Assembly: GCA_009839325.1 (NCBI GenBank)
Contig: VXPW01000061.1
Span: 21,456-68,011, forward strand
Length of the DNA stretch: 46,556 nucleotides
Reading direction: 5' to 3'
Source of the DNA: Rhodospirillales bacterium
Lineage (GTDB): Bacteria; Pseudomonadota; Alphaproteobacteria; TMED109
Under the pieces are notes generated by a model, which was given only the letters and a program-made list of their open reading frames with translations, was not told the DNA's origin and ran no database searches. Position 1 is the first letter of the stretch; each line of letters starts with the position of its first letter. The position numbers and the translations under genes were made by a program. Positions 15,268 through 39,385 of this stretch are shown here, in pieces.

Positions 15268-15309
15268 ACGGCCGACTTGGCGACAGCCCAAGACTTCAGG
15301 AGTTAGTGG

Positions 15310-16074: not shown

Positions 16075-16082
16075 GGAAAGAC

Positions 16083-21579: not shown

Positions 21580-22940
21580 TTCGACTGCTGGTTCTGCTGG
21601 CGGTGTTGTCGGCTGTCGGGATGTCGGCTGCTTGGCTCGCCGAAGTGCCCGGTCAATTGCGTCTCCAATGGCAAGGCTGGGAGGTCCGTGCCGCGCCCGG
21701 TCTGTTGGCGGCAGCACTCGTGGTCCTGGCCGCGCTGGTGCTCGGCGCAATTTCATTGTTCAGGTATTTGTGGAGTCTCCCGCGGCGGGCGATGACTGCG
21801 TGGCGGGATCATCGGGTACGGCGGGGATGGCGCTCACTGGAAACCGGCCTGACGGCGGCGGCGGGCGGTGATGAACGTGGCGTTCGCAACGCTCTCAGGG
21901 GCGTGCGGGTGCTGCCCGCGGACGCGCCATTGCGGCTGTTGCTCGAAGCGCAGGCAGCCATGCTGGTCGAGGACGTAGCCAGCGCTCACGCTGCGTTCGA
22001 ACGAATGGAACACGGCGCCAGCACCAAGCTCGCGGCGCTCCGGGGCTTGGTCGCCGAGGTGCGGCAGCAGGGCCGACTTGCCCACGCTCTTGACCTCGCG
22101 GAACGTGCGGCCGAGCAGGTGCCATCGCCGCGTTGGGCTCTGCAGGAGTGTCTGGACCTCAGCTTGCGGCTCCGTCGATGGGATCGGGCAAGGCAGGCCG
22201 TTTTCGCAATGCGGCGTAGCGGACACATGGACGAAGCGGCAGCGCGCCGTGCCCGAGGAGTGATTGCCGTTGAAGTGGCGAGGGCCTGTCGTGCTGACCG
22301 GGATGCGGCCGGGGCACAACGGGCAGCATCCGAAGCAGTTTCGATGCTACCCGATTTTGCGCCGGCGGCCGCAATTGCCGCGGAGGTATGGTTGGATGCG
22401 GGGCGCTCGTCCCGGGCCGCGCAGGTCATCCGTGCCGCTTGGAAGTCGCAGCCTCATCCCGACTTGGCGTTCCTGCTGCTGAGAGCAAGTGGTGCGGACG
22501 GTCCACTCGCCGGGGTAGGTCCATTGGAGGAGTTGACCGAGCTGACCCCGGATACGATGGAGGGAAATCTCGCGCTGGCGGAGGTGGCCCTGCGTGCCAA
22601 GCTGTTTGGGGTCGCCCGCAAGTATCTTGAACTGGTGCGGGGAAGCCAGCACGACGAGCGCGTGTATCGGATACTTGCCGATCTGGAACGGTCCAGCAAC
22701 AATGATTCCGAGGCGGCGTCGAAGTGGCTGTCAGCAGCACTGGACGCTGAACCGGCGCCGACCTGGCGATGCAACGCTTGTACCGAAGGATATCTGCGCT
22801 GGCAGGCAGTCTGTGACCGATGCGGCTCGTTCGACCGCATCACGTGGGGAGTGGATGGCGAGGAAAGCATGCAGGCACCAGTCAGGCAACTCCAGCGTCT
22901 ACCGGCGGAACCCGCCGCGTTGGCCGGGGCAACACCATGA
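21576..22940 (+). CDS. hemY: HemY-like TPR protein with C-terminal Cys4 motif
   Basis: The 454-residue protein has two N-terminal membrane segments (residues 1-20 and about 46-66), the HemY N-terminal region with GWEVR..PGLL, several TPR-like helical repeats, and a C-terminal zinc-ribbon-like motif (C399, C402, C413, C416, in a WRCNACTEGYLRW..VCDRCGSFD pattern). HemY of this kind is not protoporphyrinogen oxidase; it is a membrane TPR protein whose role in heme or envelope biology is not settled. It is overlapped by ATGA at both ends (mitofilin-like upstream, L,D-transpeptidase downstream), which shows tight co-translation. Confidence 0.85.
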   Translation: MIRLLVLLAVLSAVGMSAAWLAEVPGQLRLQWQGWEVRAAPGLLAAALVVLAALVLGAISLFRYLWSLPRRAMTAWRDHRVRRGWRSLETGLTAAAGGDERGVRNALRGVRVLPADAPLRLLLEAQAAMLVEDVASAHAAFERMEHGASTKLAALRGLVAEVRQQGRLAHALDLAERAAEQVPSPRWALQECLDLSLRLRRWDRARQAVFAMRRSGHMDEAAARRARGVIAVEVARACRADRDAAGAQRAASEAVSMLPDFAPAAAIAAEVWLDAGRSSRAAQVIRAAWKSQPHPDLAFLLLRASGADGPLAGVGPLEELTELTPDTMEGNLALAEVALRAKLFGVARKYLELVRGSQHDERVYRILADLERSSNNDSEAASKWLSAALDAEPAPTWRCNACTEGYLRWQAVCDRCGSFDRITWGVDGEESMQAPVRQLQRLPAEPAALAGATP

Positions 22941-23434: not shown

Positions 23435-23885
23435 CGGAAACAACGGACTGACCTCGACGAGCCGTAACCGCCTTTGACGCCTCCCGTGGCAAGGGGGCAC
23501 GTTGAAGCCGCATGCGCGTGGATGATCGCCCTTGCGAGAATGGTCGAAGGCGTGGGCAGTCCCGAGTTTCAGGTCTATCGCCAGCACGACCGCCCTCGTA
23601 TCGACAGCCCGGCGAGCGAGTCCCTGGCGCCGGTAACGCTGCGGTCACTCAATCTGTCGGAAACGTCCGGCCCGGCGAGCCAAAATACATGCCGCGGGCG
23701 TGCGCAAGGCAATTCAATAACGCGATATGTGGCCGTTGCCAATACTGTCAAACGAGCCGAAAGGGCTAACGTTTGCCCTTGCCCAAGACTATAGTTCAAT
23801 ACCTTGACCGAGTTGCGCTATCAACGTTTGCGCTGCTCAGCAGATAGGGCTTGCAGTGGTGAAATCGGCACAGGGAACACCAGCC
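23435..23885. other. Intergenic region upstream of the polyketide synthase
   Basis: About 450 bases of lower coding quality than its neighbours, with no recognised gene. A TATAGT at 23790-23795 could be a -10 box for the polyketide synthase. It has a poor -35 (CTAACG, 18 bases upstream) and a short TTGCCC direct repeat lies between. No other regulatory element is clear. Confidence 0.5.
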
Positions 23886-26800
23886 ATGAACCGAGACGCT
23901 CGTCAACGTCGTTCAGCAGCGTCACCGATCGAGCGCCATCCGCCAGAACACGGATTCTCAGAAGATAGCGAGCCGATCGCAATCGTCGGCATGGCATGCC
24001 GGTTTCCGGGAGCGGACGACCTTTCCGCCTTCTGGCGCCTGTTGGACGATGGCGTGAATGCCGTGACCGAAGGGATTCCTGGCTCTGGTGTCGGACGCAT
24101 CGGTGAACTGTTTCCCGACCCCGATGTGGAGCCTAGGGCGTGCCGCTTTGGCGCCTATCTCGAGAACCTAGATCAGTTCGACGCCGCCTTCTTCCGCATT
24201 TCGCCCGTTGAGGCGCAAATGTTGGACCCGCAGCAACGGTTGATGCTGGAGACCTGCTGGCGGGCGCTGGAAGACGCCGGCATGGACCCAGATGGCCTCA
24301 AGGGCAGCCGTACCGGCGTTTACGCGGGAATCAGCAACAACGAGTACCGCGGCCTGATCATGGAATCGAGCGAGACGGCCGAGGCCGCCGCGAGCTTGTA
24401 CGCGGTCACGGGAACGTCTTTCAATACTGCCATAGGAAGGGTTGCTTACGCGCTGGGCCTGGAAGGCCCCGCGCTTGCGCTCGATACCGCATGCTCATCG
24501 TCATTGGTGGCGATCCACCAGGCCGCATCCGGGCTGCAGCGCGGCGAAGCGGATCTGGCGATGGCCGGAGGCGTGCATACGATCCTGTCCGGACGCCTGC
24601 TCGAATTGCGCGCCAAGGCCGGAATGCTGTCGCCGGACGGGCGCTGCGCCACGTTCGATGCGGCGGCGAACGGCTACGTGCGCGGCGAAGGCTGCGGGAT
24701 CGTGGTGCTCAAGCGGCTCGCCGAGGCGGAAGCCGACGGCGATCGGATCTGGGGCGTGATCCGTGGCTCAGCCCTGAACCAGGACGGGGCAAGCCCCGGA
24801 CTGACGGTGCCAAGTGAACCGGCCCAGGAGAAGGTCATTGCGGCGGCGCTAGAGCGGGCAGGGATTGCTCCCACGGAGGTTGACTATGTCGAAGCGCATG
24901 GCACGGGGACTGAAGTCGGTGATCCGGTTGAGGTGCAGGCGACGGGAACGGCATACGGTTACGGGCGCGGGGCAGACCGGCCGCTACTGATCGGATCGGT
25001 AAAGACCAACATAGGCCATTTGGAGGCAGCCGCCGGCGTGGCCGGAGTGATCAAGGTCATCCTGGCAATGAACCGGGGAGTCATTCCCAGACACCTCCAT
25101 TTCAGCACTCCGAACCCGGTAATGGACTGGGATCAGCTGCCACTGGAGGTCACCGCGACGCCGACAGACTGGCCGTTGGTTCCTGCGCGGCCTCCGCGGG
25201 CAGGTGTCAGCGGCTTCGGCTGGTCCGGCACGAACGCCCACGTCATCCTGGAAGGTTACGGGAGGCCCGATGGTGCGGCCGCCGCGGGGCCTGAACACTG
25301 GGCAGCCGGCCCAGCAAAGCCGGTGTCCGCCACGTTCGCGACGGAGGGAGCGCAGGCGATCTCGGCGGGGGCGTCGCTGGCGGAACGCGCTGTCCGATTG
25401 CTGCCGCTTTCCGGCAAGACTGACGCGGCGCTCGATGCGGCGATCGAACGGCATCTCGCGTGGCTTGACCAGCGGGCAGATGCGCTCGCAGCGGGTGGCC
25501 AAGGCGCGGATGTGCTGGCCGACATGGCTTGGACTGCCAGCATCGGGCGCAGCCATTTCAACCGCCGTGCGGGCGTGGTGTTCCGTGACGCCGAATCGTT
25601 GCGTGAGGCTTTGCTGGAGCTCTCCGATGCGGGCGAAGGCGGTGTTTCCCCGCCGGCGGGCAAGGTAGCGTTCGCCTTCACCGGCCAGGCCAGTCAGTGG
25701 GTCGGCATGGGGGCTGCGCTCTACGAGAGCGAGCCGGTGATGCGTGCGGTTCTGGATCGCTGCGACGCCCTGCTCCGAGACGAGCGAAACGGCGGGTCGC
25801 TACTGGACGTGATGTTCGGCCGCCCAGCGAGCACAGGCGATCTCGACGATCCGCAGTGGAAACAGCCGGCGATCTACGCGCTGGAGTGCGCGCTGACCGA
25901 GCTGTGGTCGAGCGTTGGGATTCGGCCCGACGTCGTATTCGGGCACAGCCTCGGGGAGATTGCGGCGGCGCAGTGTGCGGGCGTGTTCAGTCTGGAAGAT
26001 GGGCTGCGCTTTGCGGCCGCGCGGGGTGCCCTCATCGGGGCGCTGCCAGGCGAGGGCGCGATGGCGGCCATCTTCGCTCCACCCTCGCGCGTCGCAGCGG
26101 CGCTGGACGAACACAATGCCGGCTCGGCCGGGATCGGCCTTTGCATCGCTGCTGACAACGGCGCACATCAGGTCGTTAGCGGTCCCCGGGACGAAATCGG
26201 GGAGCTCCTCGAGCGACTGGAGGCGCAGGACGTCCGGGTTGCGCGGTTGAGGAAGAGTCCCGCCTATCACAGCGCCATGGTGGAGCCGGCACTGGACGGT
26301 TTGGCAACGGTGCTCTCCGACATCACTTTCTCGCCACCGTCGCTGACCTTCGTCAGCAACCTGACGGGCGAGGTGGTTGGAGCGGCCGACGCACTCGATG
26401 CCGATTACTGGCTGCGCCAAGCCCGCAGCCCCGTGGCCTTTCGCGGCTGCGTTGAGGCCTTGGCTGCCGTCGGCGTCGATGCGGTCGTGGAGATCGGCCC
26501 ACACGCCGTGCTCGGTCCCATGACGACCCTCGCCTGGCCGGAGTCATCTGGAAACGCCACACCAACCGTGCTGGCGAGCCTCAGGCGGCCGCCAAAGGAC
26601 GAGGCGCCGCCCGCGCCGGGTTCCGGCGGCGGATTCGTGGAGGCCGTTGCCGAAGGCTACGCCACAGGTTTGCCGATCGATTTCACGGGGCTCTTCGCGG
26701 GCGAGGCGCGCCGCCGGATCTCCTTGCCCGGCTATCCGTTCCAGCGAGAACGTCACTGGGTCGAGACGTCGAAGCGGCGTCGGCACGGTTCAGGGCATCC

Positions 26801-29800
26801 CCTGCTTGGTGAGCGCCACGATTCTGCCAGCGGCGAGACCGTGTTTGATACTGAGGTCCTGCCCTCGGACCCGGCATGGTTGAACGACCATCAGGTGTTC
26901 GGCCACTTGGTGGTTCCGGGCGCATTGTACGGGGCCATGGCCGCGTCTGCGTCCCTTTTGGAGGGAGGCGAGTCAGCCGTCGTGGAGGACTTCCAGATCC
27001 AGACGGCGCTGGTCTTTCGGAGCGACGGCGCCGACGAGGCCTCCGACCATCCGGGCCGACGGCTTCAAGTCCTGCTCGGTGACTCCGAAGACGACGCGTC
27101 GCGAAGGGTTCGGCTGCTCAGCCGGGCCGACGGGGAGGAGGTCTGGACGCTGCACGCGGAAGGGCGAATCGCGACATCCCGCGCCGCTCCGCCGGACACG
27201 GTCCCACCGCTCGATCTCGACCGCATGAAGGCAGGCCTCTCCCCTGTGGAACTGCCGGCCTACTACCGCGCCAAGGTGGCCGTCGGCATCGACCTTGGTC
27301 CATCGTTCCGCACCCTGGAGGCATTGTGGTCGGGACCCGGCGAGGCGCTGGGGGAGATCACTCTCCCAGCCGGTCTCGAGGACAGCCGGTTCGAGGTGCA
27401 CCCGCTCGTGCTCGACGGCTGTTTCCAGGTCATGGGGGCGGCCCGCGAATGGGACGGAGATGAAGGCGGCATCACGTACCTTCCCTTCGCGTGGGAGCGG
27501 CTGTGCCTGCCGGACCGGCTACCCGACCAGCTGATATGCCACGTGCAAATGCGGGCAGGCCCCGCCGAAGGAACGGCGGGATCGGAAGACGCGGAACTGC
27601 GGGAAGTCCAGGCTGCGGATCTGCGACTCTACGACCGCAGCGGTCATCCGGTCGGTCAATTGTCCGGCTTTACCGTGAAGCGGGCTACCCGGGCGGCACT
27701 GCTTTCAGCGATCGAAGGAATCGACGACCTCCTGTATCAGGTGGTCTGGCGTGACAGCGCTCTGCCGCCCGGCATGCCGCCTGCAGATTTTCTCACTCTA
27801 CCCTCGACGGTTGCAGGGGAAACGGATCTGTTCACCGAGTACCTCGGGAACGAAGGTGTCGGCGCCGAAGATCGGGCCAATTTGCTGGCCGATCTTGAGC
27901 AATTGGCCCATGTTTACGCCGTCGCGACCCTCGACGGGCTGGGATGGGAACGCACCGCAGGGGCGGAGGTCGATTCCACGGCATTGCGGAAGCACCTCGG
28001 GGTGGGCTCAGAACACGAGCGGCTGTTCCGACGGCTGCTGGAGATGCTGACGCGTGGCGGGATCCTTGAGGAGGCCGGCGACGGCTTTCGCGTTGCGATC
28101 GCGTCCGGAGAACCGCTCCCGGCAGGACTGGCGGACGATCCCGACACCATTGCGGCCCGTATGGCAGAGAAGTATGCGCACGGTTTGAACGAGATCGGGC
28201 TGTTTCGTCGCAGCGCCGCCGCCTTGCCCGAAGTGCTCAGGGGGGATGCGGACCCGCTGACACTCCTGTTCAGCAGTGGCGAGCCGACCGCCGCGGACCT
28301 TTACCTGAAGGCGCCGGTGGCGCGTGCGGCGAACCGCATGCTGGCTGAGGCGACCGCGACTCTCTTGCGGTCCACGCCGGCCGGTCGGCGGCTGCGCATC
28401 CTCGAGGTCGGGGCAGGAACGGGCTCCGCGACGGCCGCCGTGCTCCCCGAACTCCCGGAAGGGAGCTACGACTACGCCTACACCGACATCTCGGCAGGCT
28501 TCTTCGCGGAAGCTGAAGCCCGTTTTGGAGGACCGGAAGCCTCGATCGATTACCGCGTCCTGGATATCGAGAAGGACCCGATCGAGCAGGGATTCGACCG
28601 GCACGGCTATGACCTGCTGATAGCGTCCAACGTGCTGCACGCCACGCGGTATCTGAACGAAACCCTGGCGCACTGCCGCGCACTCCTGGCGCCGTCGGGT
28701 CAACTGGTGGCGCTGGAGAATCTGCGCTCGCAGGGATGGCTGGATCTCACTTTCGGGCAACTGGACGGCTGGTGGCGGTTCGCCGACAGCTATCGACCGC
28801 ACCACGCCCTTGCGAGGCCTGGCGTCTGGCGCGAAGCACTTGGTGACGCAGGTTTCGAGGACATAGCGATTCTGGGCTTCGACGAGTCGGATCCGAATGC
28901 GAACCCGGATCGCGGTGTCATCGTGGCACAGGGACCAGCTGAAGTGACCGAGGCACCCGGTGTATGGGTGTTGGCTGGCGATCAAGGCGGTGTCGCGGAT
29001 GAGCTGGCTCGGGAACTGGCTGGACGCAATCAGGTGGTGGTGCTGGTAGGCGCGGATGGCCGAGTTGCGGATGGGTCGGAGCCGGTTCCGGCGGGACTGC
29101 GCGAAGTGTCCGTCGAGACGGAACAACGCACGGCGTGGACGACCCTGTTCCAGGAGCTGCCCGGAGACGCGCCACTGGCGGGCGTGGTGCATTTGCTTGG
29201 ACTGGACGGACACGGCACGGAAGCGACCACGAGCGAGATGGCGGAAGACATACGCCAGGCGACGGCGACCGCGCTGGCGATGGCACAGGGTGTTGCGGAC
29301 GCGGATGCAGAGCCGGCAAAGGGGGTGTGGTTCATCACCCGCGGGGCCCAGGTGCTGGAGATCGAGCGCGGTGGAATTCTCGCCGGTGCCACGTTGTGGG
29401 GCCTTGGCAAGGTAATGGCCCGGGAAGCGCCGCAACTGCAGCCCAGGATGCTCGATCTCGACACTGTCGGGTCTGTACCTTGCGCCGAACTCGTGAATGA
29501 GCTGTTGTATCCCGATTCCGAAAGTCACATTGCCTATCGTTTCGGCCGGCGCCAGTGCGCACGGCTGGTCTCGGCCGCAGCTGTCGTTGACCGGCTGGCC
29601 CTTCCGGACGAGCCGGGTTGGGCGCTGGCGCCCGATGCCGGTGGCGCACTCGACGGGATGCATGTGGAGACCCTGCCGGAACGTGCCCTTGAGCCCGGAG
29701 AGATCCGTGCCTCGATCGAGGCATTCGGTCTCAATTTCCGGGATGTGTTCATCGCAATTGGCCTTGTCGAAGACTCCATGGGAGGGGAGTTCTGCGGTCG

Positions 29801-32800
29801 GGTCCTGGAAGTGGCGGACGGCGTCTCAAGTGTCACCGTCGGCGACCGCGTCGTCGGATTGACGTTCCGCGCCTTCGGGTCCGAGACGGTGACCCTCGAA
29901 CAGATGGTGGCTCCGGCCCCCGACGGGTTCTCGGTCACCGAACTGGCGACGATGCCGACGGCGTTCGTGTCGGCTGCGCTGTCGTTCGAACTCTCGGGGC
30001 TGAACGCCGGCGACCGCGTGCTGATTCATGCCGGTGCTGGCGGTGTCGGGCTCGCGGCGATTCAGTTGGCGCATGCGGCTGGTGCGGAAGTGTTCGCCAC
30101 TGCAAGCGAGCGCAAGCGAGACTTTCTGCGCTCGCTCGGTGTAACGCATGTGTTCGACAGCCGCACCACCTCGTTCGGTGAGGACGTGCTTGCGGCCACG
30201 GCGGGTGCCGGAGTCGACATGGTTCTGAACAGCCTGACCGGCGAGGGCTTCATCGAGACGAGTCTCTCCTGTCTGGCCCAGGGCGGCCGCTTCGTGGAAA
30301 TGGCCCGGGTCGACATTCTCAGCGAGGAAGAGATGGCGGCGAAGCGTCCGGACGTTGCCTACGCGATCCTCGCAATCGATGCCTTGAAGGAAGAGGACCC
30401 GGTACGGGCGGGAGACATTCTGCGGCGGGTACTGGGAATGTTGGAAGCCGGGACGTTGACCCCGCTGCCTCACGCGAGATGGCCGCTGGCCGAGGCGGGA
30501 CCGGCGATGGAATGCATGCGTGCGGGCCGACACGTCGGCAAGATCGTCCTCACCAATTCGCCCTTGGCTCGCGGTCGGCTGCGGGCGGACCGGTCATATC
30601 TGGTGACCGGAGGCCTCGGCGGCATTGGGTGTGCAGTGGCAGGCTGGCTGGCCGAGCGAGGTGCCGGTGTGATCGTGCTCAATGGTCGCCGACCGCCCGA
30701 TTCGGACGTAGCGGAAGCGATCGAGGTACTGCGCCGGCGCGGCTCCACGGTTCAGGTGGAACTTGCGGACGTGACGGATGCGGACGCGATCGATGCCATG
30801 GTGGAGCGGATGGATGTGGAGCTGCCCCCGCTCGGAGGCGTCATCCACAGCGTCGGCGTGCTGTCCGACGCTGCAATCGGCAATCAGAGCTGGGAGACGT
30901 TCGAGACCGTGCTCTGGCCAAAGCTGTTGGGAGCCTGGCACCTGCATCGGGCGACGGTCGACCGCGATCTGGACATGTTCGTGCTCTTCTCCAGTGTTGC
31001 CGGCGTTCTCGGCAATCCGGGCCAGTCCAACCACGCTGCTGCCAACGCGTTCCTTGATCAGCTAGCCGCCCACCGGCGTGCGCTGGGGCTCCCTGGGCAG
31101 GCGATTGCCTGGGGGGCGTGGTCGGAGATCGGCGAGGCGGAGGAGCAGCGCGAGCGCATGACGCAGCGTTCCGCAACCAGCGGGATCGAGTGGATCACGC
31201 CGCAGCAAGGCCTTCGGTCGTTCGATCGGCTGGTGCGGGAGGACGCGGCGACGGGGGTAGTGCTGGCGAGGGATTGGGTCGCGTTTGGCGAGTCTCTCGA
31301 GGTCCGTCCACCCTTCTTGGAGGAGGTGCTGGCCGACGATGCGGAGGACGGTACCCAGTCGTCGTCAGAAGACCTGCTGTCCAGGCTGCGGGATGCTCCT
31401 GCGGGAACGCGCGAAGAAGAGCTGGTTTCGTACTTGCAGGGAGAGGTCCAGGCCGTCTTGAGGCTTCCGGCCGCTCCGCAGTCCACGGTGGGTTTCTTCG
31501 ACTTGGGAATGGACTCCCTGATGGCGGTGGAGTTGCGCAACCGGCTGAACCGCGCATTGGCCGGAGCGTACACGGTGTCCAATACCGCGGTGTTCGACTA
31601 CCCGAATATCGCCGTCCTCGCCACCCACTTGACGGAGGAGCTCGTCGGGGTGGTCGGGGCGTCCACTCCGGCAGTGCAACCCGGCCCGTCGCATCCGCCA
31701 ACCACCCCTGGCGCTCCCGGCGGCGAGGCAGATGCCGTTGCAATCGTGGGCATGGCATGCCGGTTCCCGGGCGCGAGAAACCTTCCGGCTTTCTGGGACC
31801 TGCTGGCTGCCGGTACCGACGCCCTGCGGGACGAACGCCGCGAAGCGCGACCCTGGTCCGATTTCCTCGACCTTCTGCCTGACCAGTACTCCGCCTACTG
31901 CCGTGGCGGGTTTGTCGAGGGGATCGATCAGTTCGATGCGAAGTTCTTTGGGATCTCACCCATCGAGGCCCGGCTGATAGACCCGCAGCAGCGAATGCTG
32001 TTGGAGACCGGTTGGCAGGCATTCGAGGATGCGGGAATCAATCCGGACCGGCTGAGTGGCAGTCGCACCGGGGTGTATGTCGGCGTCGCCACCAGCGAAT
32101 ACCGAGACCTCATGAAGAACGGCGACTACGGCATTGGCTATCTGAGTACCGCCGCAAGCATGGCGGTTGGCCGGCTTGCCTTTTACTTCGGCCTGGCCGG
32201 ACCGACCATGCCAGTGGAACTGAACTGCGCATCGTCGCTGGTCGCCGTGCATCAGGCGGTCGACGGCCTGCGACTTCGCGAGGCGGATCTTGCCCTTGCC
32301 GGGGGTGTGAGTGCCGTGCTCTCGGCACCGATCACAAGAGAGATGGCGGACCTCGGACTGCTGTCTCGGGAGGGCTCGTGCAAGACCTTCGACGCCGCTG
32401 CGGATGGTTTCGTTCGAGGTGAGGGCTGCGGCATGGTCGTCCTGAAGCGCCTCGCGGACGCGGAGGCCGATGGCGACCGGATTTGGGCAGTGATTCGCGG
32501 AACGGCCGTCAATCAAAACGGGGCGAGTGCGGGACCGACGGTCCCCAACGGCTCAGCGCAGGAACGGGTGATCAGTCAGGCATTGTCACAAGCTGGCATC
32601 GCGCCTTCCGACGTGGACTACCTTGAGGCCCATGGAGCCGGATCCGCCTTCGGTGATCCCATCGAAGTGCAGGCTGCCGCGGCCGTCTACGGCCAGGAAC
32701 GTCCGGACGAGAACCCGCTGCTGATCGGGTCTGTCAAGACCAACATCGGTCATTTGGAATCGGCCGCCGGCATTGCGGGCCTGATGAAGACGGTGTTGGC

Positions 32801-34274
32801 GATGAGCCGGAAGGTCGTCCCACAGCACTTGAACTTCGACAAGCCCAGCCCACTCGTCGAATGGGACCGGCTGCCGGTGCAGGTGGCGAGCGCGACGGCG
32901 GCGTGGCCCGCAGTGTCCGGTCGGCCGCCCAGGGCGGGGGTCAGCGCGTTCGGGATTTCCGGGGTGAATGCGCATGTCGTTCTTGAAGGGCACGAAGGGG
33001 CCGACGGCGGCGAGGATGAAGACGAGTGTCTGCCCGAGGGCGCCGCCCGGCGGGTCCCTGCCAGTTTGCCGCAGACGCTTGCCGCGGCTGCCCAAGGCGA
33101 TGACGAGTTCACGGCGCGTGATGCGCGACTTCTGCCTTTGTCTGCGAAGTCGGGCGGGGCGCTGCAGGCTTTGGCAGGGGAATACCTGGCGTGGCTGGAT
33201 GAACGTACCGACCTGCTGTCGACGGATGGTGACGCATCGGGCCCGCTCCTTTCCGACATGGCGTGGACGGCCGGAGTGGGACGGAGCCACCTTGACGTTC
33301 GTGCCGGCGTGGTGTTCCGTGACACCGCCTCGCTGCGAGAGCGCCTGCAGGCACTGGCGAAGGCCGAGAGCAACCGGGGCAATTCAGCGGGCGTGAAGCT
33401 GGCGTTCGTTTACGCCGACGAAATCGGCAGTTGGGCTGGAGTCAGTAAGGCTTTGTACGAGAGCGAGCCCGTCGTGCGGGCCGTCCTCGACCGTTGCGAG
33501 ACCGTGCTGCGTGACGAGCGCGGGGGCTCATTGTTGGAGGCAATGTTTGAGCGGGGCGGACCCGCAGACGCGCTCAATCATTCGGAGCTGGGAGATCCGG
33601 CCGCGTATGCGCTGGCCTGCGCGCTCACCGCCCTTTGGTCGAGTATCGGCATTCGGCCGAGCGTAGTCGGCGGACGGGGCGCTGGTGAGATCGCAGCCGC
33701 CCAGGCCGCTGGCGTATTCGATCTGGAGGACGGGCTCCGGATCGCGTCGATACGGAGTTCGCGACGCCAAGAGCTGCAGAACGGCGCGGGTGGAGGGACC
33801 GGTCCAGGCGAACAAGACGCCACTCTGGACCAGATCAGTTTCGAGCCACCCTCGATCGGTCTTCTGAGTAGCGCGACGGGTCAGCCGGTGGAGCCTGGCA
33901 AGACACTGGATGCAGCGTACTGGCGTGTGCAAATGCAGGAGTCGTCACCGTCCGAACATTGGGCGGACGCGCTTGCGAAGCTGGAGGTCCGGGTAGTTGT
34001 CGAAATCGGCGCGCAGGCCGCCCAGGGATCGGCGTCTGAAAACGGCGCCGCAGCACCGGTGCTGCTTTCGAGCCTGCGGCCAACACGTTCCGATGGGACG
34101 AGCTTGGCGACGGTCTGCGATACCGGATTCGTGGACGCGGCTGCCAGGGCATACGAAGCCGGGCTGCCGGTTTCCTTCGAAGGACTGTTCGCCGGTGAGG
34201 AACGCCGCCGCGTCTCGCTACCGGGCTATCCGTTTCAGCGTCTGGCCCACTGGCTCCAGAAGCAGCAGACCTGA
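23886..34274 (+). CDS. Modular type I polyketide synthase, KS-AT-DH-cMT-psiKR-ER-KR-ACP-KS-AT0
   Basis: This 3462-residue protein holds one full reducing module and a second partial one. Domains by nucleotide: KS1 about 23960-25260 (active Cys at 24492 in DTACSSS); AT1 25660-26600 (GHSLGE, Ser at 25947; the AYHS motif suggests malonyl-CoA); DH 26790-27720 (HxxxGxxxxP, His at 26889; DGCFQ); C-methyltransferase 27800-28920 (EVGAGTGSA); a structural KR half 28950-29590; ER 29640-30560 (HAGAGGVGLAAI); KR 30590-31150; ACP 31400-31650 (Ser at 31515, GMDSL); KS2 31730-32990 (Cys at 32226 in ELNCASS); truncated AT2 33390-34250 with Gly instead of Ser (33678). There is no thioesterase or reductase domain. 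An iterative, fully reducing, C-methylating synthase making a methyl-branched acyl chain is the likeliest reading; the product is unknown. A GTG at 23856 is an alternative start. Confidence 0.93.
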   Translation: MNRDARQRRSAASPIERHPPEHGFSEDSEPIAIVGMACRFPGADDLSAFWRLLDDGVNAVTEGIPGSGVGRIGELFPDPDVEPRACRFGAYLENLDQFDAAFFRISPVEAQMLDPQQRLMLETCWRALEDAGMDPDGLKGSRTGVYAGISNNEYRGLIMESSETAEAAASLYAVTGTSFNTAIGRVAYALGLEGPALALDTACSSSLVAIHQAASGLQRGEADLAMAGGVHTILSGRLLELRAKAGMLSPDGRCATFDAAANGYVRGEGCGIVVLKRLAEAEADGDRIWGVIRGSALNQDGASPGLTVPSEPAQEKVIAAALERAGIAPTEVDYVEAHGTGTEVGDPVEVQATGTAYGYGRGADRPLLIGSVKTNIGHLEAAAGVAGVIKVILAMNRGVIPRHLHFSTPNPVMDWDQLPLEVTATPTDWPLVPARPPRAGVSGFGWSGTNAHVILEGYGRPDGAAAAGPEHWAAGPAKPVSATFATEGAQAISAGASLAERAVRLLPLSGKTDAALDAAIERHLAWLDQRADALAAGGQGADVLADMAWTASIGRSHFNRRAGVVFRDAESLREALLELSDAGEGGVSPPAGKVAFAFTGQASQWVGMGAALYESEPVMRAVLDRCDALLRDERNGGSLLDVMFGRPASTGDLDDPQWKQPAIYALECALTELWSSVGIRPDVVFGHSLGEIAAAQCAGVFSLEDGLRFAAARGALIGALPGEGAMAAIFAPPSRVAAALDEHNAGSAGIGLCIAADNGAHQVVSGPRDEIGELLERLEAQDVRVARLRKSPAYHSAMVEPALDGLATVLSDITFSPPSLTFVSNLTGEVVGAADALDADYWLRQARSPVAFRGCVEALAAVGVDAVVEIGPHAVLGPMTTLAWPESSGNATPTVLASLRRPPKDEAPPAPGSGGGFVEAVAEGYATGLPIDFTGLFAGEARRRISLPGYPFQRERHWVETSKRRRHGSGHPLLGERHDSASGETVFDTEVLPSDPAWLNDHQVFGHLVVPGALYGAMAASASLLEGGESAVVEDFQIQTALVFRSDGADEASDHPGRRLQVLLGDSEDDASRRVRLLSRADGEEVWTLHAEGRIATSRAAPPDTVPPLDLDRMKAGLSPVELPAYYRAKVAVGIDLGPSFRTLEALWSGPGEALGEITLPAGLEDSRFEVHPLVLDGCFQVMGAAREWDGDEGGITYLPFAWERLCLPDRLPDQLICHVQMRAGPAEGTAGSEDAELREVQAADLRLYDRSGHPVGQLSGFTVKRATRAALLSAIEGIDDLLYQVVWRDSALPPGMPPADFLTLPSTVAGETDLFTEYLGNEGVGAEDRANLLADLEQLAHVYAVATLDGLGWERTAGAEVDSTALRKHLGVGSEHERLFRRLLEMLTRGGILEEAGDGFRVAIASGEPLPAGLADDPDTIAARMAEKYAHGLNEIGLFRRSAAALPEVLRGDADPLTLLFSSGEPTAADLYLKAPVARAANRMLAEATATLLRSTPAGRRLRILEVGAGTGSATAAVLPELPEGSYDYAYTDISAGFFAEAEARFGGPEASIDYRVLDIEKDPIEQGFDRHGYDLLIASNVLHATRYLNETLAHCRALLAPSGQLVALENLRSQGWLDLTFGQLDGWWRFADSYRPHHALARPGVWREALGDAGFEDIAILGFDESDPNANPDRGVIVAQGPAEVTEAPGVWVLAGDQGGVADELARELAGRNQVVVLVGADGRVADGSEPVPAGLREVSVETEQRTAWTTLFQELPGDAPLAGVVHLLGLDGHGTEATTSEMAEDIRQATATALAMAQGVADADAEPAKGVWFITRGAQVLEIERGGILAGATLWGLGKVMAREAPQLQPRMLDLDTVGSVPCAELVNELLYPDSESHIAYRFGRRQCARLVSAAAVVDRLALPDEPGWALAPDAGGALDGMHVETLPERALEPGEIRASIEAFGLNFRDVFIAIGLVEDSMGGEFCGRVLEVADGVSSVTVGDRVVGLTFRAFGSETVTLEQMVAPAPDGFSVTELATMPTAFVSAALSFELSGLNAGDRVLIHAGAGGVGLAAIQLAHAAGAEVFATASERKRDFLRSLGVTHVFDSRTTSFGEDVLAATAGAGVDMVLNSLTGEGFIETSLSCLAQGGRFVEMARVDILSEEEMAAKRPDVAYAILAIDALKEEDPVRAGDILRRVLGMLEAGTLTPLPHARWPLAEAGPAMECMRAGRHVGKIVLTNSPLARGRLRADRSYLVTGGLGGIGCAVAGWLAERGAGVIVLNGRRPPDSDVAEAIEVLRRRGSTVQVELADVTDADAIDAMVERMDVELPPLGGVIHSVGVLSDAAIGNQSWETFETVLWPKLLGAWHLHRATVDRDLDMFVLFSSVAGVLGNPGQSNHAAANAFLDQLAAHRRALGLPGQAIAWGAWSEIGEAEEQRERMTQRSATSGIEWITPQQGLRSFDRLVREDAATGVVLARDWVAFGESLEVRPPFLEEVLADDAEDGTQSSSEDLLSRLRDAPAGTREEELVSYLQGEVQAVLRLPAAPQSTVGFFDLGMDSLMAVELRNRLNRALAGAYTVSNTAVFDYPNIAVLATHLTEELVGVVGASTPAVQPGPSHPPTTPGAPGGEADAVAIVGMACRFPGARNLPAFWDLLAAGTDALRDERREARPWSDFLDLLPDQYSAYCRGGFVEGIDQFDAKFFGISPIEARLIDPQQRMLLETGWQAFEDAGINPDRLSGSRTGVYVGVATSEYRDLMKNGDYGIGYLSTAASMAVGRLAFYFGLAGPTMPVELNCASSLVAVHQAVDGLRLREADLALAGGVSAVLSAPITREMADLGLLSREGSCKTFDAAADGFVRGEGCGMVVLKRLADAEADGDRIWAVIRGTAVNQNGASAGPTVPNGSAQERVISQALSQAGIAPSDVDYLEAHGAGSAFGDPIEVQAAAAVYGQERPDENPLLIGSVKTNIGHLESAAGIAGLMKTVLAMSRKVVPQHLNFDKPSPLVEWDRLPVQVASATAAWPAVSGRPPRAGVSAFGISGVNAHVVLEGHEGADGGEDEDECLPEGAARRVPASLPQTLAAAAQGDDEFTARDARLLPLSAKSGGALQALAGEYLAWLDERTDLLSTDGDASGPLLSDMAWTAGVGRSHLDVRAGVVFRDTASLRERLQALAKAESNRGNSAGVKLAFVYADEIGSWAGVSKALYESEPVVRAVLDRCETVLRDERGGSLLEAMFERGGPADALNHSELGDPAAYALACALTALWSSIGIRPSVVGGRGAGEIAAAQAAGVFDLEDGLRIASIRSSRRQELQNGAGGGTGPGEQDATLDQISFEPPSIGLLSSATGQPVEPGKTLDAAYWRVQMQESSPSEHWADALAKLEVRVVVEIGAQAAQGSASENGAAAPVLLSSLRPTRSDGTSLATVCDTGFVDAAARAYEAGLPVSFEGLFAGEERRRVSLPGYPFQRLAHWLQKQQT

Positions 34275-34332
34275 GGTCGATTCAATCGGCCGCGCACTGT
34301 CGGCAACGGACCTGGCCTTGCGACGCGGCCCT

Positions 34333-34361
34333 CGACTGCCCCGCTTTGGGGGCAGTCGTTT
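34333..34361 (+). terminator. Rho-independent terminator after the polyketide synthase
   Basis: CGACTGCCCC and GGGGCAGTCG form a perfect ten-base-pair stem (34333-34342 and 34349-34358) with a six-base loop. TTT follows, then TCGCTCGTTT, so the T-run is short but present. It lies 58 bases after the stop codon and points in the plus direction. Its presence argues that the gene end at 34274 is a real evolved end. Confidence 0.75.
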
Positions 34362-34417
34362 CGCTCGTTTGACGCCAGGCGGCGGCCGGCCAGAGGCGGC
34401 CGGTCACCGAGAATTGG

Positions 34418-34648
34418 TCAGGCGGCGCGTGCGTCGATGTGGGTTACCAAGTCCCGCAGCGTATCGAACTGCATGCAGTCCTCGGCCACCATCTTCAGGT
34501 CGAATTCGTCGTTGACCAGTTTGAAGAATGCCACCGCTTGCATGGAGGTGACCCCAGCATCGCTGAATGCTCTGTCGAAATCTGGCTCATGATCCAGATC
34601 AAGGTTCTCGTTGATGAGTTGCCTCAGGCGGCTTTCTGTTGACGACAT
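34418..34648 (-). CDS. Free-standing acyl carrier protein
   Basis: The 76-residue acidic protein has the length and helix pattern of an ACP. The phosphopantetheine attachment site is S35 in SDAGVTSMQAVAFF, which matches the DxGxxS pattern although the usual DSL is TSM. The ATG at 34648 has an AAGGAA about ten bases upstream, so the in-frame ORF above it (to 34762) is not needed. It is convergent with the polyketide synthase and divergent from the Rieske oxygenase gene. It could supply the carrier that the terminal KS-AT0 lacks. Alternatively it serves a separate acyl or peptidyl pathway. Confidence 0.85.
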   Translation of the reverse strand: MSSTESRLRQLINENLDLDHEPDFDRAFSDAGVTSMQAVAFFKLVNDEFDLKMVAEDCMQFDTLRDLVTHIDARAA

Positions 34649-34891
34649 GTGTTTGGGTTCCTTTCTTGCGGTGCGTTCAAGCGGAATGCTGGCCTCTAGC
34701 TTCGCCGCCCGCCTACCTTGGAGGTGGAGTTTAGATAGCTTGAAACTAGATGACACAGGCAAGCGAGAAGCGCCCGCAAACTACCGTAAGCTCATGCTAC
34801 CCGCAAGCACGTTTGCGAGACGTTGCCATGCTATCGTGGTCGCCGACAGCACGATTGGAGCAGGCTGCCGACACCCGACAGCCCAAGTGAA
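34649..34891. promoter_or_regulatory. Divergent promoter region, ACP and Rieske oxygenase
   Basis: This stretch between two divergent starts includes a locally AT-rich patch near 34725-34760 (TTTAGATAGCTTGAAACTAGATGA). On the minus strand a TTGCCT and a TATCTA lie about 19 bases apart, a weak promoter candidate for the ACP gene. No convincing element was found for the oxygenase. A shared regulator site is possible but none was identified. Confidence 0.3.
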
Positions 34892-36088
34892 ATGGCGATG
34901 AAGACCGAGCTGCGCGAAAAGCAATGGGTCGAGAAGTACCCTGACGTCGGAACCGAACCGCTCCCAACCGAGCCCTACCTTTCACAAGAACGTTTCGCCC
35001 TTGAGCGTGACTTGGTCTTTCGCCGCAGCTGGATCAATGTGGGTCGCGTCGACGAGATCCCGGGCATCGGCGACTATTTCGTGCGAGATATTGCCATCTG
35101 CAAGGCTTCCATCCTGGTCGTCCGGGGCTCGGACGGTATCGTACGCGCCTTCCACAATGTCTGTTCGCACCGGAGCAATACCCTGGTGCTGGACGAACGG
35201 GGAACTTGCCCGGGCAGGCTCAATTGCCACTTTCACAACTGGGTGTACAGCGACACAGGAGAGTTGCTTTGGGTCCCGGACGAAGAAAACTTCTTCGATC
35301 TCGACAAGCGGGACCATGGTCTGACCCCAGTCAACATGGACATTTGGGAAGGTTTCGTGTTCGTTCATCTGGACCCGGAGCCGGCCCAGACGTTACAAAG
35401 CTATCTTGGCGGTGTAGCTGATCAGCTAGCAGGCTGTCCTTTCGACAAGATGCCGCTCAGCCAAACCTACCGCGTCGAGGAACGCGCCAACTGGAAGGTC
35501 GGACTCGACGCACAAAACGAGCTCTATCATTTCCCGTTTCAGCATCGTCATGTGGCCGGCGATGCGTTCAGGACCAACGACAAGCGCCAAAGCCGCTATC
35601 AGGACCTCAGGCTCTACAACTATCACAGCGTCTGGTCGTGTGAATACGGCGAGAGCCACAAACTCACGCCGATAGCCTCCACCCTCTACAAGTTCGACGG
35701 CATTCTTCGGGCGTTCACAATTCCACAAATGATCGGTGAGATGGATTTCTTCACCGTGTTCCCGAATTTCGTGATCCTGCTGTATCAGCTAGGCACGTCG
35801 ACGAGTTACCTCACCTATCATTTCTGGCCACTGGCCGTCGATCGCACAATCTGGGAAATCCGCGTCCATTTCAGGGAGCCCCTGTCCGTTCGGGAGCGGA
35901 TCCGGCAGGAGTACTTCAAGTGCATTTCCAGAGATACGCTGCAGGAAGACACGGCCATGCATGAGGCCGTCCATTCCGGTCTCGCCTCGCGTGCCAAGCC
36001 GCACATCATTTTGCAGGACAACGAGATCGCCATCCGCCATTTCCACAAGGTGATGGAAGATCGGATCGGCGCTGGTCTGCCAACTTGA
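34892..36088 (+). CDS. Rieske non-heme iron oxygenase, alpha subunit
   Basis: A 398-residue protein in two parts. The N-terminal Rieske domain binds a [2Fe-2S] cluster through C91, H93 (CSH), C112 and H115 (CHFH). The C-terminal catalytic domain holds the mononuclear iron with H213 and H218 in NELYHFPFQHRH; a third, acidic ligand probably lies near the LQEDTAMHE segment. The residue that usually is the bridging Asp is Glu210 here; Glu at this place is known in carnitine oxygenase CntA. The enzyme needs an unlinked reductase, and none is seen in the window. Substrate unknown. The ATG at 34892 is preferred; one at 34898 is also possible. Confidence 0.9.
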   Translation: MAMKTELREKQWVEKYPDVGTEPLPTEPYLSQERFALERDLVFRRSWINVGRVDEIPGIGDYFVRDIAICKASILVVRGSDGIVRAFHNVCSHRSNTLVLDERGTCPGRLNCHFHNWVYSDTGELLWVPDEENFFDLDKRDHGLTPVNMDIWEGFVFVHLDPEPAQTLQSYLGGVADQLAGCPFDKMPLSQTYRVEERANWKVGLDAQNELYHFPFQHRHVAGDAFRTNDKRQSRYQDLRLYNYHSVWSCEYGESHKLTPIASTLYKFDGILRAFTIPQMIGEMDFFTVFPNFVILLYQLGTSTSYLTYHFWPLAVDRTIWEIRVHFREPLSVRERIRQEYFKCISRDTLQEDTAMHEAVHSGLASRAKPHIILQDNEIAIRHFHKVMEDRIGAGLPT

Positions 36089-36111
36089 TCAGCGACGGCG
36101 ACGGAGGCGGG

Positions 36112-36444
36112 ATGCCGGCGATCGACGAGCCGTCATTGCCGGAGGAGTTCAGCGATCTCCAGCCCTATCTCGAATGGGCGCTCGAGCCCGAGCGCGCGCG
36201 AACTGAAATGAGGGTCGCGTCCTCGATGGTCGAGATCCGCGACTTCTACGACACGGTCCAGCCGCGGCTCGAAGCGATGATTCGCTATCTGGAAGACTTC
36301 CGCGACGACCCAATGCCGGCGCCTGCACATCGTCTCTACCTGATCTCGCTGTCGCTGGTCGAGGTGGCCAACCTGGTGGAGCTCTACAAGCGAAGAGAGG
36401 TTTTCGAGGGATGTGATCCCTTGCGGTACGCATCCGACCAGTGA
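36112..36444 (+). CDS. Small helical protein next to the Rieske oxygenase
   Basis: The 110-residue protein is acidic and predicted all-helical from its pattern (PYLEWALEPERARTEM, RLEAMIRYLEDFRDD, LISLSLVEVANLVELYKR). A GGAGG at 36103-36107 lies just ahead of the ATG at 36112; the ORF also runs back to a TTG that overlaps the oxygenase stop. I do not recognise a family. The tight spacing suggests it belongs with the oxygenase, perhaps as a small accessory or partner subunit, but this is only context. Confidence 0.7.
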   Translation: MPAIDEPSLPEEFSDLQPYLEWALEPERARTEMRVASSMVEIRDFYDTVQPRLEAMIRYLEDFRDDPMPAPAHRLYLISLSLVEVANLVELYKRREVFEGCDPLRYASDQ

Positions 36445-36764
36445 TCAGCAACGGGACTGCGGGGCGCCCGGGCAGCGGCTCTACATGGATGACCGCTCGG
36501 GGTCCGAGAGGCTGCGGAAGACAGATGCGAGGTCCGTCGAGGGCAGAGAAGCGGCGTCGGCGACCCTCGAGTGGAGCCAACGGCGGAAGCGCCGGCGCCG
36601 CCAAAGCCAGGTAGGCGTTCAGCCCGGGCCAATCGGAGACTCAGGGCGCAGCGGGCCTAGGCGCCGGACAACCACAGACCGAATCGCGGGATCTGCACAC
36701 TTCATGGATTCATCGAGTGGTCAAGGACCGAGTATCCTTCGCCGCATTTGGCAGTGAGGCGCAT
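36445..36764. other. Intergenic region before the ThDP enzyme
   Basis: About 320 bases, Arg-rich in all frames, with no recognised gene. No clear promoter or terminator was found. A GAGG just before 36765 may be the ribosome binding site of the next gene. Confidence 0.5.
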
Positions 36765-38429
36765 ATGCGTGGACGCCACGTCTTCATGGACAGCCTATCC
36801 GCCCATGGCGTCAGGTACATCTTTGGCAATCCCGGGACCACCGAGAATCCGTTGATCGGAACGCTGTCAGATTACCCTGATCTGCAATACATGCTGACGC
36901 TACACGAAGGCATCGCCATAGGCGCGGCGAGCTATTACGCGCAAGCGAGCGGCAACACCGGTCTCGTCAACCTCCATGCGGCCCCCGGGCTCGGCAATGG
37001 CCTCGGGATGCTGTACGGCGCTCTGAAGGCGAACTCCCCCGTGATCGTCACCGCCGGTCAGCAGGACACGCGGATGCGACTGCGCGAACCGCTGTTGAGT
37101 CACGATCTCGTCGCGATGGCGGCGCCATTGACGAAATGGAGCACGCAGGTGGAGCGTGTCGACGAGATTGCGGACATCATGCGCCGAGCATTCAAGATCG
37201 CGCATGATCCGCCGGCGGGCCCAGTGTTCGTAGCACTACCGATCGACGTGATGGAACGAGAGACGGACGTGGGCGCTGCGAACGCCGGCGACCTGTTTCG
37301 CGCCGCAAGTGCCGATCCTGCGGGTATCTCCGCGGTGGTCAATTGCCTGCTCGCCAGCAAGAAGCCCGTGGTCGTTGCCGGAGATGACGTGGCGCGCTCG
37401 GGCGCCAACGATGACCTAGTACGGCTGGCCGAGGCCGTCGGGGCATCGGTCTGGTTCGAGGGGCTGCACCAGCGGATCGCGTTTCCGACCGGTCATCCGA
37501 ACGCCCGCGGCGGATTGCCGTTCGACGCGGCACGCATTGCGGCGGCCCTCCGCGGTGCCGATCTCGTAGTACTGGCAGGAGGGCCATTTTTCGAAGAGGT
37601 CTGGTACTCGGACGGCAGCCCGTTCCCCGCGGGTGCACGAGTAGTGCAGATCGAGGAAAGCACCGCGCGCCTCGCATTCAATCACCCGGTGGTCGCCGGT
37701 CTCGTCGGCCACCTGCCAAGTACGCTCGCAGCGATAGGTCAGAACCTCCGGCAGCGGGCGAACGCAGCCTTCGCCAGCGCAGCGGGGGAGCGCAACACCG
37801 AACTGCGGAAGAAGAAGGCGGACGCAGCAAGTTTCCAGAAGCTTCGGGTCGAGCAGGCATGGAATCGCGAGCCGCCGTCGCTGCTAAGGGTGGTGGAAGA
37901 GATCCGCAGAGGCCTCCCGCCCAACACCATTGTCGTCGACGAGTCCATTACAGCTAGTTCGGACCTGGGTCGGACGATCCAGTTCGAGACGGCCGACGAC
38001 TATTTCGGAGGGCGAGGTGGCGGGATCGGTCAGGGCCTGGCCGGGGCAATCGGTGTGAAGCTGGGCCACCCCGACCGACCGCAGATCGCGATTTCCGGTG
38101 ACGGTTCGGCGATGTACAGCATCCAGGCCCTCTGGACAGCGGCCCATCACGACTTGGCAATCGTCTTCGCGATCTTGGCGAACCGCGAGTATCGCGTGCT
38201 GAAGCACAACATGGACAACTACCGACAACGTTTCGATGTCCCGTCAAACGAGGGCTATCCGCAGATGGACCTTCACGAACCCGTGCTCGGCTTTGTCGAA
38301 TTGGCAGCTGGGATGGGCGTTGCCGGTACCCGCGTCACCGAAAGCGATGAAATCAGTGCCGCGATCAAGTCCGCGTTCGATTCCGGGAAGCCGCATCTGG
38401 TCGAAATCATCATGGAACGCAAAGCGTGA
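36765..38429 (+). CDS. Thiamine diphosphate enzyme, benzoylformate decarboxylase-like
   Basis: The 554-residue protein has the three domains of the family: the N-terminal PYR domain with E48 (LHEGIA) that activates the cofactor, a middle domain, and the PP domain with the GDGS..Y...LWTAAHHDL..VFAILANREY motif that binds ThDP and magnesium. The start (FGNPGTTE, and H71 in NLHAAPGLGNG) is closest to benzoylformate decarboxylase and related acyl-decarboxylating enzymes. Possible reactions are decarboxylation of an aromatic 2-oxo acid or carboligation (acyloin formation). Role in the neighbouring locus is inferred. A GTG at 36717 would add 16 residues. Confidence 0.85.
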   Translation: MRGRHVFMDSLSAHGVRYIFGNPGTTENPLIGTLSDYPDLQYMLTLHEGIAIGAASYYAQASGNTGLVNLHAAPGLGNGLGMLYGALKANSPVIVTAGQQDTRMRLREPLLSHDLVAMAAPLTKWSTQVERVDEIADIMRRAFKIAHDPPAGPVFVALPIDVMERETDVGAANAGDLFRAASADPAGISAVVNCLLASKKPVVVAGDDVARSGANDDLVRLAEAVGASVWFEGLHQRIAFPTGHPNARGGLPFDAARIAAALRGADLVVLAGGPFFEEVWYSDGSPFPAGARVVQIEESTARLAFNHPVVAGLVGHLPSTLAAIGQNLRQRANAAFASAAGERNTELRKKKADAASFQKLRVEQAWNREPPSLLRVVEEIRRGLPPNTIVVDESITASSDLGRTIQFETADDYFGGRGGGIGQGLAGAIGVKLGHPDRPQIAISGDGSAMYSIQALWTAAHHDLAIVFAILANREYRVLKHNMDNYRQRFDVPSNEGYPQMDLHEPVLGFVELAAGMGVAGTRVTESDEISAAIKSAFDSGKPHLVEIIMERKA

Positions 38430-38665: not shown

Positions 38666-39385
38666 CTATCCGCGGCTCGGCGTCGGGGGTAGCTTGTAGG
38701 CGAGCGCGGCGGCAAACCGCGGTTCCCCAAGGTCCAGGAGACGCCACGCGGCAGACGGAGCGTGCGGAAACCGAAACACGCTGGATCGAACGCCTTGCAG
38801 CATCGCACCTGGTACTTCGAAACCGCATGGGTCGAGCGAGAATCCGGAACCGAGCGCCTTGATCAGCGCCTCCTTCAAACTCCACAATTGAAAGAAGCGG
38901 TCCATCTTCTGTTGTCCCTTGACGCTCGCGAGGGACTGCCGTTCCCTGGGGCTGTAGACCATGCTGCCGATGCCGTCGAAGTCGCGACGCGCGATGCGTT
39001 CTTCGACATCTACGCCGATGCACATTCGGTGCCCAAGTGCGATCAGTCCATGGCGCCCACTGTGGCTCACGTTGAACCCGAGCGACACAGGCTTTTCGCC
39101 CACGGTGGCGTACGGCTTGCCGTGTTTCCGGTAGTGGAATGACAGTTGACTGACAGAGCAACCGAGGCGCTCGGACAAGCTGAAACGTAACGCAGCCCGA
39201 CAGAGTGCGAACTCGCGCCGCGGTCGGTCCGACGCAAAGCGATGCCAGCGCTCTTGCTCGTCTCCATCAAGCACAGCGCGGGCATGGCGCTCGTGCTCGT
39301 GGTTGGCTGTCAGATCGACATGTAGGACCGTTGCGCCACTGACTTCGCGCCATGGTGTCCACCACCTCATGAATGGGCCTTTCAT
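38666..39385 (-). CDS. 4'-phosphopantetheinyl transferase, Sfp type
   Basis: The 239-residue enzyme transfers the phosphopantetheine arm of CoA to a serine of carrier proteins. Marks are the N-terminal REFALCRAALRF region, FNVSHSG, the magnesium-binding GVDVEE motif, and WSLKEALIKALGSG. This is the broad-range class that modifies PKS and NRPS carrier domains. Its position next to the PKS and the free ACP makes those the likely targets. The start ATG overlaps the stop of the preceding truncated gene (ATGA), so expression may depend on translation through it. Confidence 0.93.
   Translation of the reverse strand: MKGPFMRWWTPWREVSGATVLHVDLTANHEHERHARAVLDGDEQERWHRFASDRPRREFALCRAALRFSLSERLGCSVSQLSFHYRKHGKPYATVGEKPVSLGFNVSHSGRHGLIALGHRMCIGVDVEERIARRDFDGIGSMVYSPRERQSLASVKGQQKMDRFFQLWSLKEALIKALGSGFSLDPCGFEVPGAMLQGVRSSVFRFPHAPSAAWRLLDLGEPRFAAALAYKLPPTPSRG

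Follow-up and report, generated by a model that had tools for sequence, protein, structure and literature searches.

A reducing PKS, probably of the Sup type, ends in a conserved KS that may pass its product to a discrete ACP

Results

The window, i.e., the whole 46,556-nucleotide stretch of DNA analysed, holds a PKS gene in an uninterrupted reading frame spanning 23808-34274 (+). A previous interpretation, made from the sequence alone (the sequence-only reading), had placed its start at the ATG at 23886; an alternative GTG 30 bases earlier, at 23856, gives a protein of 3,472 aa (23856..34274, +), for which ORF and Pfam analyses yielded the domain order KS-AT-DH-MT-ER-KR-ACP-KS-psiAT. Along the + strand, the gene encodes a canonical first KS (KS1, 23961..25265; Pfam, and the motifs DTACSSS, EAHGTGT and NIGHL), an intact AT (AT1, 25653..26780; Pfam, with GHSLGE and PAYHSA), which we take by a motif rule to be malonyl-type, a DH (26781..27725; PF21089, PF14765), a C-methyltransferase with the motif EVGAGTG (28293..29015; PF08242), an ER (29643..30560; PF13602, PF00107), a KR with GGLGGIG (30576..31175; PF08659) and an internal ACP (31431..31631; PF00550). 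All seven domains present their usual motifs, except that the KR has His where Tyr is usual, a substitution found in 44/47 family members (the family is defined below) vs 10/38 other KR stretches, counting those caught by pattern. The corresponding patterns for DH, MT and ER (26, 26 and 3 of 37 caught) were badly constructed and were set aside.

Downstream of this module, still on the + strand, lie a second KS with an intact catalytic Cys-His-His (KS2, 31719..33020; motifs ELNCASS, EAHGAGS and NIGHL, and dN/dS as given below), a KS-AT linker domain 3′ of it (33138..33362; PF22336), an AT remnant (psiAT2, 33366..34055; motifs and alignment) and a C-terminal tail (34056..34271; alignment), which ends in GYPFQRLAHWLQKQQT and has a similar counterpart in loci without AT2. 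KS1-AT1 and KS2-AT2 of this gene share 48% identity over 851 aligned columns. The sequence-only reading had described one complete reducing module with a C-methyltransferase, then a KS and a degenerate AT. Pfam recovered the same order and no domain C-terminal to the second AT, and the degeneracy is plain in the motifs: GHSLGE of AT1 reads GRGAGE in AT2, i.e., Ser is replaced by Gly, and the stretch that would carry the catalytic His is absent.

Beginning after 58 bases from the PKS stop is a perfect 10-bp inverted repeat whose arms flank a 6-base loop (34333..34358), which recurs as a 9-bp hairpin at the same place in the congener G003. It had been read as a hairpin terminator. The hairpin is real, but with no T-run after 34333-34358 and no site in a terminator scan of 33500-37000, it is not established as an intrinsic terminator. 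A stand-alone ACP of 76 aa, overlooked in the sequence-only reading, follows 143 bases past the PKS (34418..34648, −; PF00550), and an Sfp-type phosphopantetheinyl transferase (PPTase) lies farther on (38666..39385, −; PF01648). Between these two (34823-38429) sit a Rieske-type oxygenase (34823..36088, +; PF00848, PF00355) and a thiamine-diphosphate enzyme (36717..38429, +), the latter nearest to a benzoylformate decarboxylase model and below its cut-off. Among congeners, both are present at the PKS locus in the window's genome (G000) and G003 only, leaving a place for them among the core parts unsupported; a Rieske match of 32% was seen in locus L074.

The short end of the PKS had been argued not to be a fresh break, and comparison with relatives strongly supports this. 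The gene is present in 5/6 other genomes of the genus (G004 lacks it); in G001, G002, G003 and G006 it forms one frame of 3,464-3,527 codons with an identical end point, and in G005, where it is split over contigs, there are two 3′ ends, both stopping at the same place. Beyond the genus, a scan of a genome collection, from which the best 80 of 571 relatives were kept, gave 78 loci; by profile score and tree, 47 of these were assigned to the family, and the other 31, PKS loci from other bacteria, were set aside. Since these relatives were chosen by their likeness to KS2-AT2, the family counts are no census, and since the sequences are related, they are not counts of independent events. In 29 of the 47 family loci, including copies in which AT2 is very degraded (L067, L071), all nine domains stand in order in a single frame whose stop follows the second AT; the remaining 18 include 14 that are cut or split. 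In full, 29 loci are complete, 1 is complete but cut at a contig end (L055), 2 are one-frame without AT2, 2 are multi-module and 13 are incomplete or split. Continuation past the second AT, which by the sequence-only reading would have marked a truncation or assembly break, was seen in none of the examined relatives whose 3′ end is complete. The two multi-module genes, from Bryobacterales (L065, L080), are frames of more than 6,000 codons with repeated AT-DH-MT-ER-KR-ACP-KS modules, and their KS domains form a separate clade, sister to the PKS family. The same end in congeners and family loci rules out a truncation or assembly break, and the terminal KS2-psiAT appears to be there by design.

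Signs of two PKS copies per genome or locus were seen in L026 and L027 (the two 3′ ends of G005), L043 (tandem genes) and L073 (an opposite-strand fragment at 20984-22531). Separately, the PKS frame of L039, L044, L052 and L064 is interrupted by stops or shifts of frame, reflecting either decay or sequencing error.

The two terminal domains differ sharply in what they have kept. In a catalytic-residue alignment of 46 KS1 and 47 KS2 domains (of which 6 and 7, respectively, belong to the genus), KS2 retains the Cys in 47/47, the second (GHL) His in 47/47 and the first (HGTGT-type) His in 45/47, Gln replacing it in L067 and Asn in L056; KS1 is intact in 46/46. In AT2, the Ser is found in 1/43 and the His in 0/43 readable copies (44 rows, less L055, which is cut by a contig end), vs both in 46/46 readable AT1 copies (47 rows, one of which, L052, is a fragment). 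The sole AT2 Ser, in L071, is doubtful, as no other AT motif stands at that place. The surroundings of the catalytic residues also set the two KS types apart: KS1 mostly reads DTACSSS, and in KS2 the Cys is followed by A(S/A)(S/A); exact HGTGT occurs in 45/46 KS1 vs 1/47 KS2, and HGxGS in 33 of the 45 KS2 read by pattern. DPQQ is present in 46/46 KS1, which, like the HGTGT figures, is a count of the motif behind the DPQQ/HGTGT primers and of that alone.

Selection on the two domains was compared in four pairs (G000/G003, G000/G006, G001/G002 and G001/G005b; a fifth, G002/G005c, was dropped because a short fragment was misaligned). KS2 gave dN/dS values of 0.10, 0.13, 0.12 and 0.15, similar to those of the active domains, and psiAT2 gave 0.37, 0.35, 0.19 and 0.25, so that psiAT2 is under weaker constraint than KS2 (0.19-0.37 vs 0.10-0.15), yet still below 1. 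With its catalytic residues kept and dN/dS at 0.10-0.15, KS2 is ruled out as a pseudogene. L047, L050 and L064 have lost all or nearly all of AT2 and retain KS2, the linker domain and the tail with YPFQRRR (in L064 the gene is also split, at a point farther upstream). Judged by its residues, then, AT2 is a dead remnant, shed by some relatives. An AlphaFold2 model of the window's KS2-psiAT adopts a predicted KS-AT di-domain fold (mean pLDDT 80, pTM 0.85), and its best PDB matches are KS-AT di-domains.

To place KS2 phylogenetically, trees of 57 and 142 rows were built. In the first, KS1 forms one clade, KS2 another, and the two are sisters (100/97, 100/99 and 98/92); in the second, SH-aLRT support is 98 for KS1, 100 for KS2 and 86 for the branch joining them. 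Next outside are the KS domains of the two multi-module Bryobacterales genes. The sister relationship indicates one duplication within the family, and this single KS duplication most likely predates the family's spread. The KS trees are at odds with phyla, and the nearest relatives of the window's two KS domains differ (L042, L047 and L070 for KS1, Latescibacterota for KS2), which together point to transfer and recombination in the history of the family.

By their titles, the loci with KS2 among the best 80 of 571 relatives come from Latescibacterota, Alpha- and Gammaproteobacteria, Gemmatimonadota, Chloroflexota, Acidobacteriota, Nitrospirota, Nitrospinota, Binatota and Rhodothermaceae, so the family appears to span about nine phyla. 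Binning error cannot account for all of these loci, because one lies on a 6.27-Mb chromosome record and another on a 3.9-Mb contig. Among 385 genomes drawn from the window's class, a match to the PKS with E up to 1e-180 was found in 8, which represent 4 of the 276 genera. For family loci other than L039 and L070, a sponge origin is presumed, in part from bin names. L039 and L070 themselves match Aplysina aerophoba sponge bins by accession (PMC5649159), and hosts named in another study fit the bin names of family loci (PMC8163846).

The sequence-only reading had noted that no ACP or release domain follows the second AT. Within the protein this stands, but a discrete ACP and an alpha/beta hydrolase accompany the gene. 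Because some ORF clusters proved to be antisense artefacts, partners were counted independently of these clusters, in the 39 loci in which the 3′ end of the PKS is present (L055, L057, L059, L062, L065, L076, L080 and L102 were omitted), themselves drawn from the best 80 of 571 relatives. Of these loci, 32/39 have a stand-alone ACP near the PKS and 28/39 an alpha/beta hydrolase. The ACP was not found in the available flanks of 7/39 loci (that of L071 extends 216 bases downstream), nor the hydrolase near the PKS in 11/39; the hydrolase match of L071 is cut by the contig end. The attachment Ser is present in 33/33 aligned stand-alone ACPs. Across the class, the stand-alone ACP (E up to 1e-8) occurs in the same 8/385 genomes as the PKS and in 0/377 others, and a hydrolase of at least 59% identity in the same 8/385, with weaker matches only, up to 37%, in six further genomes; given shared ancestry within 4 genera, this co-occurrence does not amount to 8 independent events. 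Within the genus, G004, which lacks the PKS, lacks the ACP and the hydrolase too, and in G000 and G003 the hydrolase is on a contig other than that of the PKS. Distances among the trans-ACPs correlate weakly better with those of KS2 than of KS1 (Spearman 0.34 vs 0.21, 30 loci), which is not decisive for coevolution with KS2 over KS1. Relatives of the Sfp-type PPTase lie near the PKS in 16/39 loci of the same sample.

Two side observations concern these neighbourhoods. On contig C8 of G000 (15187-16487), away from the PKS, a second copy of the stand-alone ACP adjoins the alpha/beta hydrolase. An NCS2-type nucleobase permease, with no obvious link to lipid synthesis, is found near the PKS in 19/39 loci (L053, L068 and 17 others).

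Discussion

What might a KS do at the end of such a protein? With somewhat better than even confidence, we read the gene, from its domains and partners, as a PKS/FAS that works iteratively, is fully reducing and C-methylating, and contains its own off-loading domain, KS2, acting toward a discrete ACP. KS1, AT1, DH, MT, ER, KR and the internal ACP would assemble a methyl-branched acyl chain; the KS2 Cys would accept the finished chain from the internal ACP and pass it to the separate 76-82-aa ACP, where it would be freed or used, probably by the conserved alpha/beta hydrolase. Iteration is suggested by the single module, and methyl branches by the MT together with the malonyl-type motif of AT1, a rule that we presume holds here; a product in the methyl-branched fatty acid class is accordingly a hypothesis. 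The scheme resembles, by description, the release of monensin, in which MonKSX moves the chain to the discrete MonACPX and MonCII hydrolyses it, so that the work of a terminal thioesterase falls to three parts, a transferase, a discrete ACP and a separate thioesterase (PMC3943991). A discrete ACP and a separate hydrolase are present in our gene set as well; unlike KSX, KS2 is part of the PKS protein, at its end, and has an AT remnant attached.

It is the MonKSX model, together with CalA3, where a KS beside a dead AT carries out release chemistry, that leads us to rank transfer to the discrete ACP first and a final condensation second. Under the latter, KS2 would perform a last decarboxylative condensation with malonate that AT1 or another malonyltransferase had placed on the discrete ACP, and the hydrolase would then cleave the resulting beta-ketoacyl-ACP. 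A last elongation is conceivable since the Cys-His-His triad needed for condensation is intact in 45/47 KS2, and the combination of a KS with an AT remnant, like the retention of KS, linker domain and tail where the AT is lost, recalls the KS domains of trans-AT systems, several of which are close structural matches. The window PKS is not itself a trans-AT system, its first module having an intact AT in cis. Against condensation, exact HGTGT is absent from 46/47 KS2 (mostly HGxGS), with the His lost in two, and no ketone-processing gene appears among the annotated recurrent neighbours. We consider condensation rather unlikely.

KS2 might instead free the chain itself, by hydrolysis or amide formation, as CalA3 does. 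The likeness is considerable: CalA3 is an ACP-less module whose AT Ser has become Gly and whose Cys-His-His is needed to form a C-N bond (PMC10006239), and KS2-psiAT likewise has no ACP after it, has lost the AT Ser and has kept the KS triad; the CalA3 structure is also among the matches listed for the predicted fold. Yet CalA3 is a separate protein that retains a DH and a KR, both inactive, whereas nothing follows AT2 in the window PKS, those domains are missing from its terminal part, and a partner ACP exists. As self-release would leave the conserved discrete ACP and hydrolase without a clear job, and no amine-making gene occurs among the annotated recurrent neighbours, we think it improbable.

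More improbable still is that KS2 primes the enzyme, receiving a starter acyl group carried by the discrete ACP and passing it back into the main module. Such a role would fit the ACP's standing as a conserved partner and the lack of a loading module ahead of KS1, but an ACP followed by a KS in the protein suits forward flow, and FAS-like enzymes allow direct priming of their KS. That KS2-AT2 is a decaying, functionless second-module remnant, or an assembly break, is very improbable: the degenerate AT2, after which the protein ends, would fit this, but KS2 is under purifying selection, its catalytic residues are kept over about nine phyla, and the same end recurs in unrelated genomes, the 6.27-Mb chromosome record and the 3.9-Mb contig among them.

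Returning to the off-loading of finished chains, we tentatively propose, at a little short of even confidence, that KS2 arose by one duplication of the PKS's own KS, lost AT function and now exports finished methyl-branched chains to a free ACP and a hydrolase of its own, a route that appears to be undescribed for mono-modular PKS/FAS enzymes.

The family is probably Sup, a likeness drawn to SupA by description only. The window PKS has one complete reducing module with a C-methyltransferase, and SupA also carries an MT. Sup enzymes are described as small mono-modular PKSs from symbionts of sponges, with mid-chain-branched fatty acids as their proposed product (PMC4245539), and a sponge-only KS clade falls mostly in Gemmatimonadetes (24.7%) and Alphaproteobacteria (20.2%), a distribution that the hosts of our family fit (PMC10308959). 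In the available full-text literature, the founding Sup papers aside, we found no description of a terminal KS-AT in Sup; as far as this literature shows, the terminal KS-psiAT of a Sup-like PKS and its partners are apparently undescribed. Sup genes made up more than 99% of the KS amplicons in one sponge survey (PMC4245539), and in the literature surveyed, as far as its text was accessible, their product and release step are unsettled. Amplicon surveys would tend to miss KS2, because the HGTGT primer motif is present in only 1/47 of them. With a free ACP and a hydrolase named as partners, the system comes down to a small protein set that could be rebuilt in a laboratory host, making the question of product and release directly testable.

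SwfA, too, is a mono-modular reducing PKS/FAS of sponge symbionts, with the order KS-AT-DH-ER-KR-ACP and the motifs HATGT and GHSSGE (PMC3908369). The window PKS differs in having an MT, HGTGT, GHSLGE and a second KS-AT, and these motifs and domains rule out its membership in SwfA. A SwfA-like gene was not found in the window's genome. G003 does carry a second PKS (L112:3211-10380, −) with HATGT and GHSSGE, i.e., the published SwfA signatures, G003 being the only copy checked; frames of this second PKS, 2,390-2,400 codons long, are present in G001, G002, G003 and G006, and a contig piece in G005.
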